Program-made: the position numbers and the translations under genes
Shown here: piece by piece, positions 56,342-63,981 of the stretch
Position numbering within the stretch: position 1 is the stretch's first letter
Layout of the letters: the number at the start of each line of letters is the position of its first letter
Notes under the pieces: model-generated
What the model saw: the letters and a program-made list of their open reading frames with translations, nothing else
Databases searched by the model: none
Told to the model about the DNA's origin: nothing
Assembly (NCBI GenBank): GCA_028282465.1
Contig: JANQHX010000056.1
Span: 62,001 to 126,000 of the forward strand
DNA length: 64,000 bases
DNA from: Gynuella sp.
Lineage (GTDB): Bacteria > Pseudomonadota > Gammaproteobacteria > Pseudomonadales > Natronospirillaceae
Reading direction: 5' to 3'

Positions 56342-56357
56342 TGGCACATGGGTTGCT
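56342..56357 (+). promoter_or_regulatory. Sigma-54 promoter of the flgB operon
   Basis: TGGCACATGGGTTGCT matches the -24/-12 consensus TGGCACrNNNNTTGCW with both invariant doublets correctly spaced. It lies about 40 bases before the flgB ATG and sets transcription about 28 bases upstream of it. FleQ-type activation would be expected; no activator site was identified. Confidence 0.92.
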
Positions 56358-56395
56358 CTATTGTTTGCAAGTACAATTTTATGGAAGGCATTACC

Positions 56396-56794
56396 ATGAG
56401 CGCACTAGGCTTTGACAATTCGTTGAGTATTCACCCACAGGCATTATTGACCCGTGCTCATCGTTCAGAGGTCTTGGCAAACAACCTATCCAATGGTGAT
56501 ACCCCAGGATTCAAAGCTAGAGATATTCCATTTAATGAAATCATTAAAGGTGAAATTCATAAAGTGAGTAGCTTAGCCGTAGACAGAACAGATGAGCGCC
56601 ATTTAAAGGGTAGAGGCAAATCTGAATATGACCTAATGTTTAGGGTACCCCATCAGCCATCTATTGATGGTAACACTGTAGATGATAATTATGAGCATGG
56701 GGAATTCACCAAAAATGCCATGGACTATAACGCCAGTTTTGATTTCTTAAATAGAAAGTTTAAAGGTCTGACCAGAGCGCTAAGGGGTGAATAA
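56396..56794 (+). CDS. flgB: Flagellar basal-body rod protein FlgB
   Basis: A 132-residue proximal rod subunit. The N-terminal rod motif is QALLTRAHRSEVLANNLSNG and DTPGFKARDI. The C-terminal heptad is NASFDFLNRKFKGLTRAL. The start MSALGFDNSL is fixed by GGAAGG eight bases upstream; an earlier in-frame ATG lies inside the sigma-54 promoter. Stop and flgC start are separated by two bases. Confidence 0.95.
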   Translation: MSALGFDNSLSIHPQALLTRAHRSEVLANNLSNGDTPGFKARDIPFNEIIKGEIHKVSSLAVDRTDERHLKGRGKSEYDLMFRVPHQPSIDGNTVDDNYEHGEFTKNAMDYNASFDFLNRKFKGLTRALRGE

Positions 56795-56796
56795 AG

Positions 56797-57237
56797 ATGT
56801 CATTAAGTAATGTAATCAATATTTCTGGTTCAGGTATGAATGCCCAGTCTATTCGGCTGAACACAACAGCATCAAATATTGCCAACGCCCAAACCGTGAG
56901 TAGCAGCATAGATGAAACCTATCGAGCCAGAAAACCTATTTTTCAGGTTCTACAAAAAGAATGGGAACATCGAGACTTCAGCGCCGTTGATTTAGATTCT
57001 GATGTTGGCAACGGAGTCAAAGTGGGCGCGATTGTTGAGAAGGGGGCGCCTTTGCAAATTCGCTATGAACCCACTCACCCAATGGCAGATGAAGAGGGTT
57101 ATGTTTACTACCCTAATGTTAATGTCGTTGAAGAAATGGCAGATATGATTTCCGCATCTCGCAGTTTTCATGTCAATGTAGAAGTATTTAATACAGCAAA
57201 AACTTTGCTGCAAAAAACCTTAACTATGGGTCAATAA
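56797..57237 (+). CDS. flgC: Flagellar basal-body rod protein FlgC
   Basis: A 146-residue rod protein: SLSNVINISGSGMNAQSIRL, NTTASNIANAQTV and the C-terminal VVEEMADMISASRSFHVNVE with NTAKTLLQKTLTMGQ. Length and both ends match the family. Confidence 0.96.
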   Translation: MSLSNVINISGSGMNAQSIRLNTTASNIANAQTVSSSIDETYRARKPIFQVLQKEWEHRDFSAVDLDSDVGNGVKVGAIVEKGAPLQIRYEPTHPMADEEGYVYYPNVNVVEEMADMISASRSFHVNVEVFNTAKTLLQKTLTMGQ

Positions 57238-57273: not shown

Positions 57274-58032
57274 ATGGCTGATATAAATGGTGTAAACAAC
57301 ACAACCAGTGCTATTGATAAATACAGCATTGATGACAAGGTTGTTGAAGAAGAAAAGTCTAATGAATTAGGCCGGAATGAATTTCTAGAGTTAATGATTG
57401 CTCAAATGGAAAATCAAAGCCCTCTAGACCCTAAATCAAATGAAGATTTTATCGCGCAGCTGGCTCAATTCAGTTCCGTTGAAGGGATCGAAAAAATCAA
57501 TGAAAGCCTGGAAGATTTATCGGCCTCATATCGCTCTAGCCAAACACTAGAGGCCACCAGCTTAGTAGGGAGTTCAGTCACTCTCGATGGGCAGAGCAGT
57601 TCACAGCTTATCTGGGGGGATGTAGTTTTCGCTACTGCGGAAATTCCGGCAGGTTCGGATGGTTTAACATTGTCCATTGAAAATGACGTGGGTGAAATTG
57701 TTGAACAGGTCGAAATAGGTTATCAAGAAGCAGGTAATCTGAATATTAAATGGGACGGCATGAATCTAGAAGTGGGTGGTCAGTTGATGGATATTGACTA
57801 TGAAAAATTTGCCACAGATGAGGATGGAAATCCTATTCCTCATGACGAGGGCGAATACTCTATTTCCATCATTGGTAACGTAGCTGGGTCAGCAAATGCT
57901 GAAAGTATTGCGGTTTCAATGAGTACTCGAGTAGACAGTGTTTCTATTAATTCGGATAACACAGTAACGCTTAATTTACTGGGTGGTGAAAAAGCGTCAA
58001 TCGACAGTATTAAACAAATAAACGATATATAG
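57274..58032 (+). CDS. flgD: Hook-capping protein FlgD
   Basis: A 252-residue scaffold that caps the growing hook. The N-terminal capping signature is NEFLELMIAQMENQSPLDPK and NEDFIAQLAQFSSVEGI. A FlgD tudor/Fn3-like domain follows (IKWDGMNLEVG, DEGEYSISIIG). It is probably co-translated with its partner flgE, whose hook protein is much enlarged here. Confidence 0.94.
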   Translation: MADINGVNNTTSAIDKYSIDDKVVEEEKSNELGRNEFLELMIAQMENQSPLDPKSNEDFIAQLAQFSSVEGIEKINESLEDLSASYRSSQTLEATSLVGSSVTLDGQSSSQLIWGDVVFATAEIPAGSDGLTLSIENDVGEIVEQVEIGYQEAGNLNIKWDGMNLEVGGQLMDIDYEKFATDEDGNPIPHDEGEYSISIIGNVAGSANAESIAVSMSTRVDSVSINSDNTVTLNLLGGEKASIDSIKQINDI

Positions 58033-58145: not shown

Positions 58146-61100
58146 ATGAGTTTTAATTCCGGCCTAAGCGGAGTAGCAGCCGCAAATCAGGATTTAAAAA
58201 TTACGGGTAATAATATCGCGAATGCGAGTACTGTTGGCTTTAAGGCCAGTCGGGCTGAGTTTGGGGATGCCTACACCGCCTCAATTTTGGGTATGGGAAA
58301 TGATCCAATCGGCAGCGGGGTTAATGTTGAAAACGTAGGTCAAAAATTTGAGCAAGGCAGTATTACCCAAACCAATAGTATTTTAGATATGGCTATTGAT
58401 GGTTCGGGTTTTTTTGTTACCCGTTATCCGTCTAACGGAACTGTCACTTACACCAGGGCTGGTATTTTTGGCGTTGATAAAGAAGGCTATGTGGTAACAA
58501 ACCAGGGCGCTCATGTTCAAGGATATGGTACTGATGAGAACGGTATTGTTCGAGGTATATTAACGGATATTCAAGTAGATACTGGCTCTCAGCCACCCAG
58601 AGGCACCCATGGTGTTCAGGGCTCAGTAAATGTGCCTGCGGGTGCGCAAGTGTTAGCTCAAATGGGTTCCATTACCACCACCAATGGTTTAGCTGTTGGA
58701 CAAGCTCAAGTCGGTGAACCTGAAGCCACAGCTACTCGCTTATTAACCGTAGGTCCTTCAACAACCTCAGGACAAGCTGCAACCGTGCCCGGTACTACCA
58801 ACTTGGCGGCAACACTTACCGGCAGTGCAGACATTCCGATTCATAATAGTTTTAGTGCCGGTTTTGATATGCCAAATATTGAATCCTGGCAAACCGCCAC
58901 CGTGGTTAATGGCGGCGCAGTCTATTCCATTGACCGCTCAGCCGAAGTCATAGATTTAAGCATTACTTTGCCTGGCGCTGCTTCAGCATCCACTGTTTCC
59001 TTAACCATGTTGCCGGCTCCAGCAGCAAACATTTCTTCAGCAGTTTCAATTATTCAAAACGTATTGAGTACTAACCCAACAACAGCAGGTCATGTGTTCG
59101 TTCGGGAAAATCCATCCGCATTAGGCACCTTGGAATTTTATACCACTGACGGCACAACCATTACGAACGTTGTGGATAATGGCGCAGGTACCCTGGCAGT
59201 TGACTTAGGGTTAGCAGCTGGTGCGGCGGCGGCACCGCGTATTATGTTGGATGCATCTGTCATCGACTTTGATATTAGTTTTACAGATGCCACAGGTACA
59301 GCCCAAACCTTTAACGTGGCTGCCATGGCAAACCAACCCTATGATGCCGGGCCAACCACAGCCGATAACCTGAATGATTTTATTACTGACTTACAAGCCG
59401 CAGTTGATGCTGCCGCAGTTAGTGCAGGTGGTGCTGGTGGTGGCGCGGAATTTACGGTACAGGAAGACCCATATAATCCCGGCGGTTTTGAAATTATTAC
59501 CACAAACCCTTTTGTCGCCACCACCAGTGAATGGGGTATTACAAGCATTGTGGATAACACAGGCACTATTGCGAAAGATACCACCATGCAATACTCCAGA
59601 GCGGACTCCAGAGTATTTCCATTTATTACACCTTCTACTCCAGACCCCACATACACAGTGCAGATTCAAATTCAGGATCCCAATGTAAATGGGGGTACTC
59701 CTTACAATGCACTCATTAAGCCTCTAGCTTTTGATAACCGAATTACATCAATGAATGAATTAGTCACTCGATTTCAAACTGCTGTAGACACAGACCCTGT
59801 GTTAGCAGGTCGAGTAACGGTTCAACCTGACCCTGCAAATTTGAATCGACTGCAATTTATTTCATCAACAGGTACCAGTATTCGAAGTGTTTCTGATATT
59901 GGGGCATCAACCATAGCGGGAGATCTTTCTTTAGATACTGCTGTGGTGGTTGATTCTTTGTTTGTGAATTTCCCACCAGCATCGCCAGAAACCATTGATA
60001 TTCAAATTCAAGGGCCAAATCTAAATAACGGCAACCCCATTATTGCGAACATTGAACCATTTCCTACCACGGTGACCATTAATAACATGGGTGAATTAAT
60101 TGGCTCTTTTCAAGCGGCAATTGATGGCAACCCAGACCTTGCTGGTACTTTGGAAGTATTGGAAGACCCTAGCAATCCTGGTCAGTTAATGATTAGAACT
60201 ACTGGGCCTTATGCCACCGATGGCACACAAATCATTGCCATTAATGACAACGTAGGCACCACTGCTTTCGACCTTGGTATAGACAGTGGCTCTGTGAGCC
60301 CAACACCGGCATTAGCAGGTACCGATTTGTGGGAAGCAGGTGGTATTGATTTAAAGACGGTAGAAGGTTCGCCAGTTCAAGTGCAAGGTAATGAAGCGTC
60401 CGAGCTGGAATTTAATGATCTAATTCCGGGTACAGTCACTGAACTAACGGGTTCTGCTTTATTATCTTCTACACCGTTGTTCAATGTGGATGTCATTCCT
60501 CACTCACTAACCTTGCAACTGCAAGTAGGTGGCTTTGCACCGGCTACCATTAATCTAACCTTGCCTGCTGGTGGCTATGCAGATTTAAACGCGTTGGTAA
60601 CCGACTTCAATAACCAGATTGCCGTGTCGACATTGGCAGGCGAAGTGGCCGCTCGTAATAGCAATAACTTTTTAGAGTTAGTCAATCTAGATACGGGGCC
60701 TCAATCTATTAACGTAATAGAACTATCATCAACTAACGTGGGTTTTACCGGGCAGTCTATTGGATTAACGGCGAGCGCGAGTCCTTCTCCATCGCTAATA
60801 TTGGGTGAAGCGGATACTCCTGCAAACAACCTGATCACTATTCAAGTGGGAGGCTCGGACCCGGGTTTGGGAACCATTCAAGTACCTCCAACTACTTATG
60901 GTAATGTTGATGCCGTAGTGGATGCCATCAACTTTCAAATAAATTCTGATGCTAGTTTATTTGGAAAAGTTTATGCCGAAAATGTTAACGATAGAATCGT
61001 GTTTTCCCTCAGTGAGTTAGGCGGTTTTCCAAATACTCTGGACGTTACAGGTTCAGCAGAGGCGATGGAGGCCATTGGGCATACCACCCAAACCACTCCA

Positions 61101-62909
61101 ACCCCAGAAAACCCTTTTGATCGCACACACTCATTTAGAATTAATTTAAATGTTCCGTTACCGGATCCAGAGAACCGAAGTGGGTCTGTTGAAATTTCCC
61201 TCGATGAAAACATCAGAACCATTGAACAATTGGCCGCTTCTATTAATCGAGAATTAGCAGCCGTTCCTCAAGATGATTATATCGGTGTACGTGCAGAAGT
61301 TGTGAAAGACGATAATGGAGACAAGGTATTAAACTTTGTTGCCACTGAATCCGGTGAAGCGTCGCAAATTTCTTTAACAGATGTTCGTGCCATCGGCGAT
61401 GATATTACAGTGCAAGAACTCTATGGGTTGTTACAAGTAGACAGGTTTGATCCGGATTTATTGATAGAAGGCGAAGCAGAAGTCACTAATGGTTATCCTG
61501 AACAAACCTTTGTTTTATATGATGAAGAAAATGACATTAGACGAAACATTGTAACTGAAGAGAATGCACAGGCTTCAGAATTAGCCGCTCAGTTTAGTTC
61601 GTTGGCAGGTGTTACCGCAAGCGCAGAAACTGAGGCGCGCATTCTGTTAGAGGATTACATCAACAGCGGTAACATGGACATTTATATCAACGGCCAAATC
61701 ATTGTGGCTGACGATTTTCAAGACATGGTGGATGAAGTTGCGTTGTACCAACAAACGTCATTGACTGGAGTGACTGCAGAATTAGACAGTGAAACCGGAG
61801 ACCTGGTGCTTCGTTCGGGAATTGGTATTGATATTAAATTGCAGATTGAAACCACAACCGTGACTGACAGTTTAGTTGTTCAGGGTCTGCCGGGAACCGC
61901 ACCTGCCATTCTGGGTGGTTCAGATACTGCTGATATTGCAGCGCGAATAGGGGGGTACGTAGATATTGTGCTGAACGAAGGCTACACCTTAACGGAGCCA
62001 GATCCTAGAGTAGCAGGTTTATTTAATGGGTTAACTGAAAACGATTTCGAAGATTTTGTTTTAAATGAATTTGATCCAAATGACCCTGAAACCTATAACG
62101 AAACCGCCGCCATGTCGATTTACGATAGCTTGGGTAATCAACACAGACTGCAAATGTTCTACGTAAAAGACCCTGCAGATCCAGCAAGACCTTTTGATTT
62201 AGCATCATGGACTGTCTATGCCCAAATTGATGGTGAAGATATTGGCGACCCTGATCCCTCGCTGCCATATCCTGAAAACTTAGAGGCTCAGATAGCGTCA
62301 TTTAAAATGTACTTCAATGCTGATGGTACATTGGATGAAGAAGCAACAGGAAATTGGTTGATTTCTAACTGGGATCCGATTGATGAAAATGGTAATTTCA
62401 ATGGTGCCTACACTTCCGCCAATGTTGCGGAAGGTGGTTCATTACCTATCCCAAACCCAAATAACAATTCAAACTTTGAAATTGACTTAAGAGGATCAAC
62501 CCAATACGGCGGACCATTTGCTCGTTATGATTTTCAACAAGACGGTTATGCGTCTGGGCGACTCAAAGATTTAGAAATTGATTCATCCGGTGTGATATAC
62601 GCAAGGTATACCAATGGTGAAGCGCAGGTGTTAGGTCAAGTGGCCTTAGCATCCTTTGCCAACCAAGAGGGATTAAATCCTGTAGGGCATACCGAATGGC
62701 AAGAAACGTTTGAGTCTGGAGATGCCACAGTGGGTGATGCTGGGACTGGCGTATTAGGAACCATTAGAGCCAGTGCGCTAGAAGACTCTACAGTTGATTT
62801 ATCAGAACAATTAGTAAACTTAATTATTGCTCAGAGAAATTACCAGGCCAGTGCCAAAACCATTGAAACGGCCAACGCGGTGACGCAAACGATAATTAAC
62901 CTTCGCTAA
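58146..62909 (+). CDS. flgE: Giant flagellar hook protein FlgE
   Basis: A 1587-residue hook subunit; about 400 is usual. The N-terminal rod/hook domain (MSFNSGLSGVAAANQDLKIT, NIANASTVGFKASRAEFGDA) and C-terminal part (TAAMSIYDSLGNQHRLQMFY from about 1320, and SEQLVNLIIAQRNYQASAKT) are conserved. Between about residues 190 and 1310 lies a large insert built from repeated units, starting near 269, 373, 503, 617, 788, 896 and 997. They resemble flagellin IN-type domains. No frameshift is seen. The insert would form outward-facing hook domains. Confidence 0.95.
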   Translation: MSFNSGLSGVAAANQDLKITGNNIANASTVGFKASRAEFGDAYTASILGMGNDPIGSGVNVENVGQKFEQGSITQTNSILDMAIDGSGFFVTRYPSNGTVTYTRAGIFGVDKEGYVVTNQGAHVQGYGTDENGIVRGILTDIQVDTGSQPPRGTHGVQGSVNVPAGAQVLAQMGSITTTNGLAVGQAQVGEPEATATRLLTVGPSTTSGQAATVPGTTNLAATLTGSADIPIHNSFSAGFDMPNIESWQTATVVNGGAVYSIDRSAEVIDLSITLPGAASASTVSLTMLPAPAANISSAVSIIQNVLSTNPTTAGHVFVRENPSALGTLEFYTTDGTTITNVVDNGAGTLAVDLGLAAGAAAAPRIMLDASVIDFDISFTDATGTAQTFNVAAMANQPYDAGPTTADNLNDFITDLQAAVDAAAVSAGGAGGGAEFTVQEDPYNPGGFEIITTNPFVATTSEWGITSIVDNTGTIAKDTTMQYSRADSRVFPFITPSTPDPTYTVQIQIQDPNVNGGTPYNALIKPLAFDNRITSMNELVTRFQTAVDTDPVLAGRVTVQPDPANLNRLQFISSTGTSIRSVSDIGASTIAGDLSLDTAVVVDSLFVNFPPASPETIDIQIQGPNLNNGNPIIANIEPFPTTVTINNMGELIGSFQAAIDGNPDLAGTLEVLEDPSNPGQLMIRTTGPYATDGTQIIAINDNVGTTAFDLGIDSGSVSPTPALAGTDLWEAGGIDLKTVEGSPVQVQGNEASELEFNDLIPGTVTELTGSALLSSTPLFNVDVIPHSLTLQLQVGGFAPATINLTLPAGGYADLNALVTDFNNQIAVSTLAGEVAARNSNNFLELVNLDTGPQSINVIELSSTNVGFTGQSIGLTASASPSPSLILGEADTPANNLITIQVGGSDPGLGTIQVPPTTYGNVDAVVDAINFQINSDASLFGKVYAENVNDRIVFSLSELGGFPNTLDVTGSAEAMEAIGHTTQTTPTPENPFDRTHSFRINLNVPLPDPENRSGSVEISLDENIRTIEQLAASINRELAAVPQDDYIGVRAEVVKDDNGDKVLNFVATESGEASQISLTDVRAIGDDITVQELYGLLQVDRFDPDLLIEGEAEVTNGYPEQTFVLYDEENDIRRNIVTEENAQASELAAQFSSLAGVTASAETEARILLEDYINSGNMDIYINGQIIVADDFQDMVDEVALYQQTSLTGVTAELDSETGDLVLRSGIGIDIKLQIETTTVTDSLVVQGLPGTAPAILGGSDTADIAARIGGYVDIVLNEGYTLTEPDPRVAGLFNGLTENDFEDFVLNEFDPNDPETYNETAAMSIYDSLGNQHRLQMFYVKDPADPARPFDLASWTVYAQIDGEDIGDPDPSLPYPENLEAQIASFKMYFNADGTLDEEATGNWLISNWDPIDENGNFNGAYTSANVAEGGSLPIPNPNNNSNFEIDLRGSTQYGGPFARYDFQQDGYASGRLKDLEIDSSGVIYARYTNGEAQVLGQVALASFANQEGLNPVGHTEWQETFESGDATVGDAGTGVLGTIRASALEDSTVDLSEQLVNLIIAQRNYQASAKTIETANAVTQTIINLR

Positions 62910-63228
62910 ATAGGCTAGAAACTTGATGCCGGAAGCCAGAAGCCGAAAATCAGCTTCTAGCTTCTAGCTTCTAGCTTCTAGCTTCTAGCTTCTAGCTTCT
63001 AGCTTCTAGCTTCTAGCTTCTAGCTTCTAGCTTCTAGCTTCTAGCCGGAACGCCGAACCGTTCTAACTTCCGGCAAAAAACCGACAATTAATTCGGTAAC
63101 TGATTGCCGCTGCAAACTATTTCAAAATTCGAAAAACGATCCAACTCACTGAAATTAAAGGCTTTTTCATAACTGGCACTGCTCTTGACTTATAACCTGC
63201 AAGAGACAGTTCCATTAGGAGAAGTTAA
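62910..63228. other. flgE-flgF intergenic region with heptamer array
   Basis: Unusually long gap for a flagellar operon. It holds the 13-copy heptamer array (62952-63042) and its inverted arms. At 63174-63189 is TGGCACTGCTCTTGAC, a sigma-54-like motif with a poor -12 (GA for GC). The flgF ribosome site (TAGGAG) is at its end. Confidence 0.75.
62928..63077. repeat. Heptanucleotide tandem array (AGCTTCT x13) bounded by inverted arms
   Basis: Thirteen perfect head-to-tail copies of AGCTTCT span 62952-63042. The left flank has degenerate inverted 7-base copies (CGGAAGC, CAGAAGC). Outer arms GCCGGAAG (from about 62929) and CTTCCGGC (about 63070-63077) are inverted repeats, so the whole can fold as one long hairpin. 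Similar design to the array after rpsA but with a different base at the unit's end. Confidence 0.93.
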
Positions 63229-63981
63229 ATGGATCGTGCGATATACATTGCCATGTCTGGTGCCAAACAAAATATGTGGAGCCAGACTGCGCACTCAAAT
63301 AATTTGGCAAATGCCAGAACCACTGGATTTAAAGCTGACTGGACGCAAGCTCGGTCGATGCCTGTTTGGGGTGAGCATTATCCCACCCGTGCTTATGCCT
63401 TAGCAGAACGACCAGCCTCAGATTTTAATGATGGCGCGTTGGTTGAAACCGGAAACGATTTGGATTTGGCTATTCAAGGCGACGGTTTTTTTGCGGTTCA
63501 ATCGCAAACCGGTGAAGAAGCTTATACCCGCCGCGGAGACTTATCCGTTACCCCACTAGGGCAATTAATTAATGGTGAAGGTTTACCTGTCATTGGTGGT
63601 GGTGGGCCTATTGTGCTGCCTGAATTTGAAAAAATTCATATTGGTGAAGACGGCACTATTTCAATTAGACCCGCCGGTGCTGGCCCAAATGCATTAGCCG
63701 TTATTGATCAAATTAAAATAGTAGATCCCGATTTGCAAACCATGGACAAAGGTACTGATGGTTTATTCCGACCTTTGGAATTACCACCTGGCGTTGCAGT
63801 GTTACCGGCAGATCCAAACCTTAGAGTGGCGTCTGGTTTTATAGAAGGTTCGAACGTCAACAGCGTTAATGAACTGACCAGTATTTTGAGTTTATCCCGC
63901 CAGTACGAAATTCAAGTAAAGATGATGAAGACAGCGGAAGACGTTTCCAAAGCGTCGGAACGCATATTGCAAATTTCATAA
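63229..63981 (+). CDS. flgF: Flagellar basal-body rod protein FlgF
   Basis: A 250-residue proximal/distal rod protein with MDRAIYIAMSGAKQNMWSQT, SNNLANARTTGFKADW, DLAIQGDGFFAVQ and the C-terminal SNVNSVNELTSILSLSRQYE. Start supported by TAGGAG. The next gene (probably flgG) would begin just beyond the window. Confidence 0.95.
   Translation: MDRAIYIAMSGAKQNMWSQTAHSNNLANARTTGFKADWTQARSMPVWGEHYPTRAYALAERPASDFNDGALVETGNDLDLAIQGDGFFAVQSQTGEEAYTRRGDLSVTPLGQLINGEGLPVIGGGGPIVLPEFEKIHIGEDGTISIRPAGAGPNALAVIDQIKIVDPDLQTMDKGTDGLFRPLELPPGVAVLPADPNLRVASGFIEGSNVNSVNELTSILSLSRQYEIQVKMMKTAEDVSKASERILQIS

Follow-up and report, generated by a model that had tools for sequence, protein, structure and literature searches.

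The flgE gene in the window (the whole 64,000-nucleotide stretch of DNA analyzed here) encodes a hook protein in which an ordinary core carries, at the opening of domain D2, a long insert of repeated units and a flagellin-like module. Comparison of sequences shows that modules of these kinds are shared with other external flagellar proteins and that the lengths of these proteins scale with that of FlgE. We consider it rather probable that the normal core and an outward shell produce a thick, probably stiffer hook whose size matches the enlargement of the junction, the filament and the cap.

Hook core and composition of the insert

The open reading frame at 58146-62909 (+) is intact, has no internal stop and encodes 1587 aa, approximately four times the size of a normal hook protein. 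Four Pfam domains exceed their cut-offs, namely Flg_bb_rod (residues 4-33), FlgE/F/G D1 (83-147), FlgE_D2 (1308-1468) and Flg_bbr_C (1543-1586), and the protein scores 447.7 bits with the NCBIfam FlgE equivalog NF004238, for which the cut-off is 400. In a phmmer alignment with the 437-aa FlgE of 8z5u, residues 6-167 correspond to 5-170 and residues 1307-1587 to 176-437; approximately 1139 aa (168-1306) stand in place of approximately five residues at the start of D2. The order of the flg genes is normal (flgB, flgC, flgD, flgE and flgF, with more rod genes and flgK downstream). Judging from the domains, the equivalog model and the gene order, we identify the gene as a genuine hook protein gene. 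The features are as follows.

56348-56794, +: flgB (open reading frame, gene order; Flg_bb_rod match)
56797-57237, +: flgC (open reading frame, gene order; Flg_bb_rod match)
57274-58032, +: flgD (open reading frame, gene order; FlgD Pfam match)
58146-58646, +: FlgE residues 1-167, N-terminal D0/D1 and first D2 strand, as in an ordinary hook protein (Pfam; phmmer to 8z5u FlgE)
58647-62063, +: whole insert, residues 168-1306, at the opening of D2 (Pfam; alignment to ordinary FlgE)
58647-58913, +: linker, residues 168-256, no confident predicted fold (pLDDT <40; no Pfam match)
58914-59243, +: unit U1 (257-366), lineage-specific copy that groups with U4 (iterated profile, phmmer, profile-profile, unit tree)
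59241-59624, +: unit U2 (366-493) (iterated profile, phmmer, profile-profile, unit tree)
59616-59963, +: unit U3 (491-606), the first unit quoted in the first-pass annotation (iterated profile, phmmer, profile-profile, unit tree)
59952-60311, +: unit U4 (603-722), the second unit quoted there, common to all aligned relatives (profiles, phmmer, alignment, unit tree)
60468-60797, +: unit U5 (775-884), predicted fold resembling FliD D2-D3, Vibrio flagellin and myophage sheath domains (iterated profile; model)
60792-61112, +: unit U6 (883-989) (iterated profile, profile-profile, model)
61092-61454, +: unit U7 (983-1103), homology to the other units at profile level only (iterated profile, phmmer, profile-profile)
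61479-62012, +: juxta-D2 module (approximately 1112-1289), predicted P. aeruginosa FliC D2/D3 fold; its profile also matches FlgK (Flagellin_IN in relatives, Foldseek, VIA, profile search)
62064-62909, +: FlgE residues 1307-1587 and stop, the remaining D2, D1 and D0 (Pfam; phmmer to 8z5u FlgE)
63229-63981, +: flgF-type rod gene of normal size, 250 aa (open reading frame; Pfam)

The gap between flgE and the flgF-type gene holds a perfect 7-bp tandem array, AGCTTCT, in 13.4 copies (62952-63045). This array is a candidate for slippage, by which spacing or readthrough could change.

An iterated profile finds seven homologous units of 107-128 aa each in residues 257-1103, and residues approximately 1104-1300 form a separate module that is distinct from U1-U7. 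Because iterated profiles can generate their own support, the units were compared singly by phmmer in a database with 2100 shuffled decoys. In this comparison, U1-U4 were mutually related, mostly at E values of 1e-15 to 1e-6 (U2-U3 at just 5e-3), U5 and U6 were related at 3e-5, and U7 was not detected against the other units. Profile-profile comparison linked U6 to U4, U5 and U7 with probabilities of 97, 98 and 92% (U7-U6 E value 6e-7), and forward versus reversed controls gave approximately 2% or less. The copies have diverged at the DNA level: the best 27-nt pair in a DNA repeat search of the gene was 81% identical, and this search revealed no recent duplication among them.

AlphaFold models were made of two segments, residues 165-745 and 725-1480. 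The units are mostly confident and have the order beta-beta-alpha-beta-beta-beta, except that U7 is poor (pLDDT 40-65). Because the whole-chain pTM is low (0.36 and 0.33), the unit folds are usable and the arrangement of the units is not reliably predicted. The juxta-D2 module (1112-1289) matches D2/D3 of P. aeruginosa flagellin, with 8.6e-9 in Foldseek and Z 14.3 in VIA (3.2 A over 168 residues). The stretch that surrounds U5 (761-890) has fold matches to a myophage sheath domain (Z 13), FliD D2-D3 (approximately 10) and Vibrio flagellin (9.4). For the U1-U4 model, the VIA matches were weaker (all Z <8), and a Foldseek search gave no significant match. A viral structure library returned scattered phage and giant-virus matches of no clear meaning, and a PHROGs search gave no match. 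Flagellin_IN (PF07196) is matched by the juxta-D2 module in 17 of 28 relatives (best 1.6e-8); the window copy lies under the curated cut-off (13.6 versus 22.7 bits, E 0.08), one relative (L088) exceeds it at 23.2 bits, and U1-U7 have no match to this family.

The first-pass annotation had described intact N- and C-terminal hook domains around an insert of approximately 1100 residues, with at least seven related units of approximately 100 residues, and the core alignment and the decoy-checked unit comparisons bear out this description. Its four quoted motifs were located at residues 507, 619, 543 and 655, and the kinship that it saw between the units near 503 and 617 (U3 and U4) agrees with the phmmer links among U1-U4. 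The self-alignment that it proposed links U1-U4 and U5-U6 singly, with U7 joined by profile-profile comparison only, and the proposed structure prediction of the insert gave the folds described above. Its description of the insert as built of related units holds for the seven units, but it missed that the part adjoining D2 is a different, flagellin-D2/D3-like module. The radially outward position that it expected is supported by the insertion site, the fold and the homology to flagellin and FliD outer domains.

Shared modules and co-scaling in relatives

A profile made from the FlgE units alone was searched against 32 whole genomes in six frames, and besides FlgE it matched almost only FliD, some flagellins and FlgK; the exceptions noticed were a phage tail sheath protein, a large protein of genome G221 and one frame of genome G281. 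The FliD identity of the matches is given by FliD_N at the same places and, for the genome's own FliD, by FliD_N and FliD_C. The matches reach 2e-27 in the FliD proteins of the own and related genomes, and in a direct comparison two relatives had matching flagellins, one of 1224 aa at 1e-13 and one of 2154 aa at 1e-23. With the juxta-D2 profile, each of the nine FlgK proteins tested gave a match, the genome's own at 3.8e-8. In a database of 46 sequences, the best reversed decoys reached 0.004 for a short T1 sub-profile, 0.03 for the unit profile and 0.09 for the full juxta-D2 profile. The unit profile gave no match to the genome's own FlgK (E 2.8), and the presence of U-type units in that protein was accordingly rejected; it carries a juxta-D2-type module only. 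By these searches, the unit belongs to a type of flagellar outer domain that also occurs in FliD, in some of the giant flagellins and, with weak matches, in FlgK.

Three of the matched proteins deserve separate description. The 2154-aa flagellin (L101, G221:C23:36400-43400) has approximately ten matches to the unit profile and far exceeds the giant flagellins of 1000-1200 aa (PMC6248924). The phage tail sheath protein, which lies in a Reinekea genome (L121:444-2405), matches at 4.7e-8, in agreement with the fold matches of the U5 region to myophage sheath domains; the likeness may reflect a domain common to flagella and contractile tails, or convergence. The large G221 protein (L119, G221:C22:78000-94345) is a frame of more than 2800 aa (5369 aa in the six-frame search) with several weak matches (best 8.8e-8) and is possibly a surface protein.

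Among 391 genomes sampled from the order, FlgE_D2 was found in 283, and the listed FlgE open frames range from 394 to 1593 aa (one relative, G059, has ten FlgE_D2 matches instead of the usual one or two). When FlgE proteins of more than 1000 residues were sought in related genomes, as the first-pass annotation had advised, each of the 18 genomes with FlgE in the sample of the window's own family (Saccharospirillaceae, judging from its named relatives) had a frame of 1222-1593 aa with 4-7 units. A wider sample of the phylum covered 299 genomes, and of the approximately 150 frames listed there, only the window's FlgE exceeds 700 aa. The relatives that could be named belong to Saccharospirillum, Reinekea, Natronospirillum and Salinibius, with Thalassolituus, Oleibacter, Bermanella and Oceanobacter at a greater distance; a contig search with the window protein alone as the query gave no match, whereas the family alignment as the query did match. 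Length follows the number of units: four in proteins of approximately 1210-1240 aa, five in 1307-1317, six in 1432-1495 and seven in 1573-1587.

In the window/Natronospirillum lineage, U1-U3 were gained on the upstream side of U4, with which they group in the unit tree (0.935). The Reinekea/Saccharospirillum form has its extra unit on the downstream side of U4, and in the tree this unit groups with U5 (0.90). Together, the alignment and the tree show separate expansions at two places, with no fewer than two independent duplications. For the pairs in which dS was measurable, dN/dS is 0.06-0.125 in the insert and 0.01-0.055 in the core, values that show purifying selection on the insert.

Lengths were compared by Spearman correlation in up to 75 genomes of the order, with lengths taken from open frames, some cut at contig ends, and with species treated as data points though not independent and without full phylogenetic correction. 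FlgE length correlates with that of FlgK at 0.93 (family means 0.93; 0.91 minus the two giant families; 0.59 within families), with that of FliD at 0.84 (0.78 for family means) and with that of the longest frame for flagellin at 0.81 (0.80 for family means; a weak 0.27 within families), and parallel shifts are also seen inside three families (f15, f40 and f45). FlgL length is unchanged (median 421 vs 417), which rules out the scaling of every axial protein with FlgE. The match of FlgE to FlgK and FliD is not fine-grained, because in the window's family FlgK plateaus at approximately 1020 aa and FliD at approximately 1310 aa while FlgE varies over 1222-1593 aa. The same genome has a giant FliD of 1313 aa (L116:4131-8069, G000:C93), a giant FlgK of approximately 1030 aa (L057, G000:C101) and a flagellin of at least 784 aa that is cut by the contig end. 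The first-pass annotation was right that FlgE is enlarged and missed that FlgK, FliD and flagellin are enlarged too. At approximately 8989-19100 of L057, after flgK/flgL and before flagellin, a gene run resembles nonulosonic-acid (pseudaminic or legionaminic) synthesis; judged from sequence starts only, it looks like a candidate for the type used in flagellin glycosylation.

A proposed thickened hook and its rivals

According to our proposed explanation, the conserved D0, D1 and D2 would assemble into the usual hook core, and the loop that opens D2 would bear a chain of outer domains, consisting of the flagellin-D2/D3-like module and seven FliD/flagellin-type units of approximately 110 residues that would have arisen by tandem duplication. 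The chain would project outward as an outer shell around the normal core, and the hook would be approximately twice the usual diameter and probably stiffer, which would match it to FlgK at the junction, the flagellin filament and the FliD cap, all of them enlarged. We infer the projection, the shell, the diameter, the stiffness and the matching, and favor this reading because of published hooks widened by D2 inserts, the estimate of width and the thick filament of DSM 24913. Hooks retain an 11-protofilament core, to which extra domains inserted in D2 add outer layers (PMC5069557, PMC5097172, PMC6769732); the C. jejuni hook is 280 A (28 nm) wide versus 180 A (18 nm) in Salmonella, and its authors expected it to be stiffer (PMC5097172). 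With residue volume and helical rise, and with these two hooks as the only calibration points for packing, the predicted width for 1587 aa is approximately 35-39 nm, or 25.5 nm if solid. DSM 24913 (Oleibacter marinus 2O1 in PMC6248924, also named Thalassolituus maritimus) has a filament at least 30 nm thick (PMC6248924) and a 1209-aa FlgE with four units; in the open-licence literature, we found no report of hook width for any member of the group. Several observations count against the thick hook: FlgL, a junction part, is not enlarged; in the window's family, the match of FlgE to FlgK and FliD is not fine-grained; the within-family correlation of FlgE with flagellin is weak, and the species are not independent; the unit profile does not match the genome's own FlgK, and the genome's flagellin is cut by a contig end; and the models do not reliably predict how the units are arranged.

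The insert may instead serve mainly for surface display, with adhesive, glycosylated or decoy domains acting in attachment or in evasion of phages or grazers and with thickness as a by-product. The outer domains of flagellin and FliD are variable, exposed parts of the flagellum (PMC6248924), and the insert has changed more quickly than the core (identity of 57-81% versus 82-93% in several pairs). However, no adhesin or carbohydrate-binding family was found among the Pfam matches of the units, and co-scaling with cap and junction would not be expected from display on the hook alone, and we regard this alternative as unlikely. Neutral growth, in which tandem duplication in a permissive surface loop is retained because the harm is small, would suit the variation of 4-7 units among relatives and the independent growth at two places; it seems quite improbable to us, since the insert is under purifying selection, at least about four units are retained in most members of two families, and three other proteins are enlarged in parallel. 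The gene is repetitive and the assembly is in 110 contigs, which could raise the suspicion of an assembly or sequencing duplication. We give that explanation practically no credence, because the units have diverged at the DNA level and homologues of the same length and architecture, with approximately 51% identity from end to end, are present in independent genomes, of which one is a single-contig chromosome.

Relation to known systems

Enlarged FlgE proteins and giant flagellins are each already known, separately. The C. jejuni FlgE has 865 aa, with extra domains D3 and D4 inserted in D2 (PMC5069557), and, as in the window, a normal core bears extra domains in D2 that end just before the conserved IYDSLG strand, where the alignment is weak. 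In contrast to its approximately 386 inserted residues without repeat units, the window insert has 1139 residues and seven homologous units, and the two inserts have no sequence match. The giant flagellins of Bermanella and Oleibacter, which have Domain Extension (DE) regions and form a thick filament (PMC6248924), belong to the same or neighboring lineages and likewise have internal duplication in an exposed region. The juxta-D2 module has the P. aeruginosa FliC D2/D3 fold, where DE homology has been placed (PMC6248924), a likeness by fold alone; the DE regions were described in flagellins only (PMC6248924), whereas related modules are found here in hook, cap and junction proteins. The units resemble the outer domains D2-D3 of FliD (HAP2) in both profile and fold, but FliD is the filament cap, and in the window the unit is repeated seven times in the hook protein. 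The likeness to Flagellin_IN is limited to the juxta-D2 module of the relatives. In the open-licence literature, we found no report of an FlgE of more than 1000 aa, of growth of a hook protein by repeat units, or of hook, junction, filament and cap proteins that share domains or scale together in length.

The parallel enlargement of these four parts with overlapping domain kinds suggests that the whole external flagellum has been thickened as a unit. At slightly less than even odds, we would go further: one family of outer-domain modules may have been amplified in FlgE, FlgK, FliC and FliD by exchange or parallel duplication, with the external flagellum thickened as a coordinated unit and the number of FlgE units (4-7) setting hook thickness. 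Size variation that has lacked an explanation would become a testable rule, namely that the sizes of the hook, junction, filament and cap change in concert during evolution, with related modules. Among the relatives, hooks that share this core differ in having 4, 5, 6 or 7 units, and this natural series is suited to asking how thickness sets bending stiffness and how the drive to a thick filament passes through a standard core.
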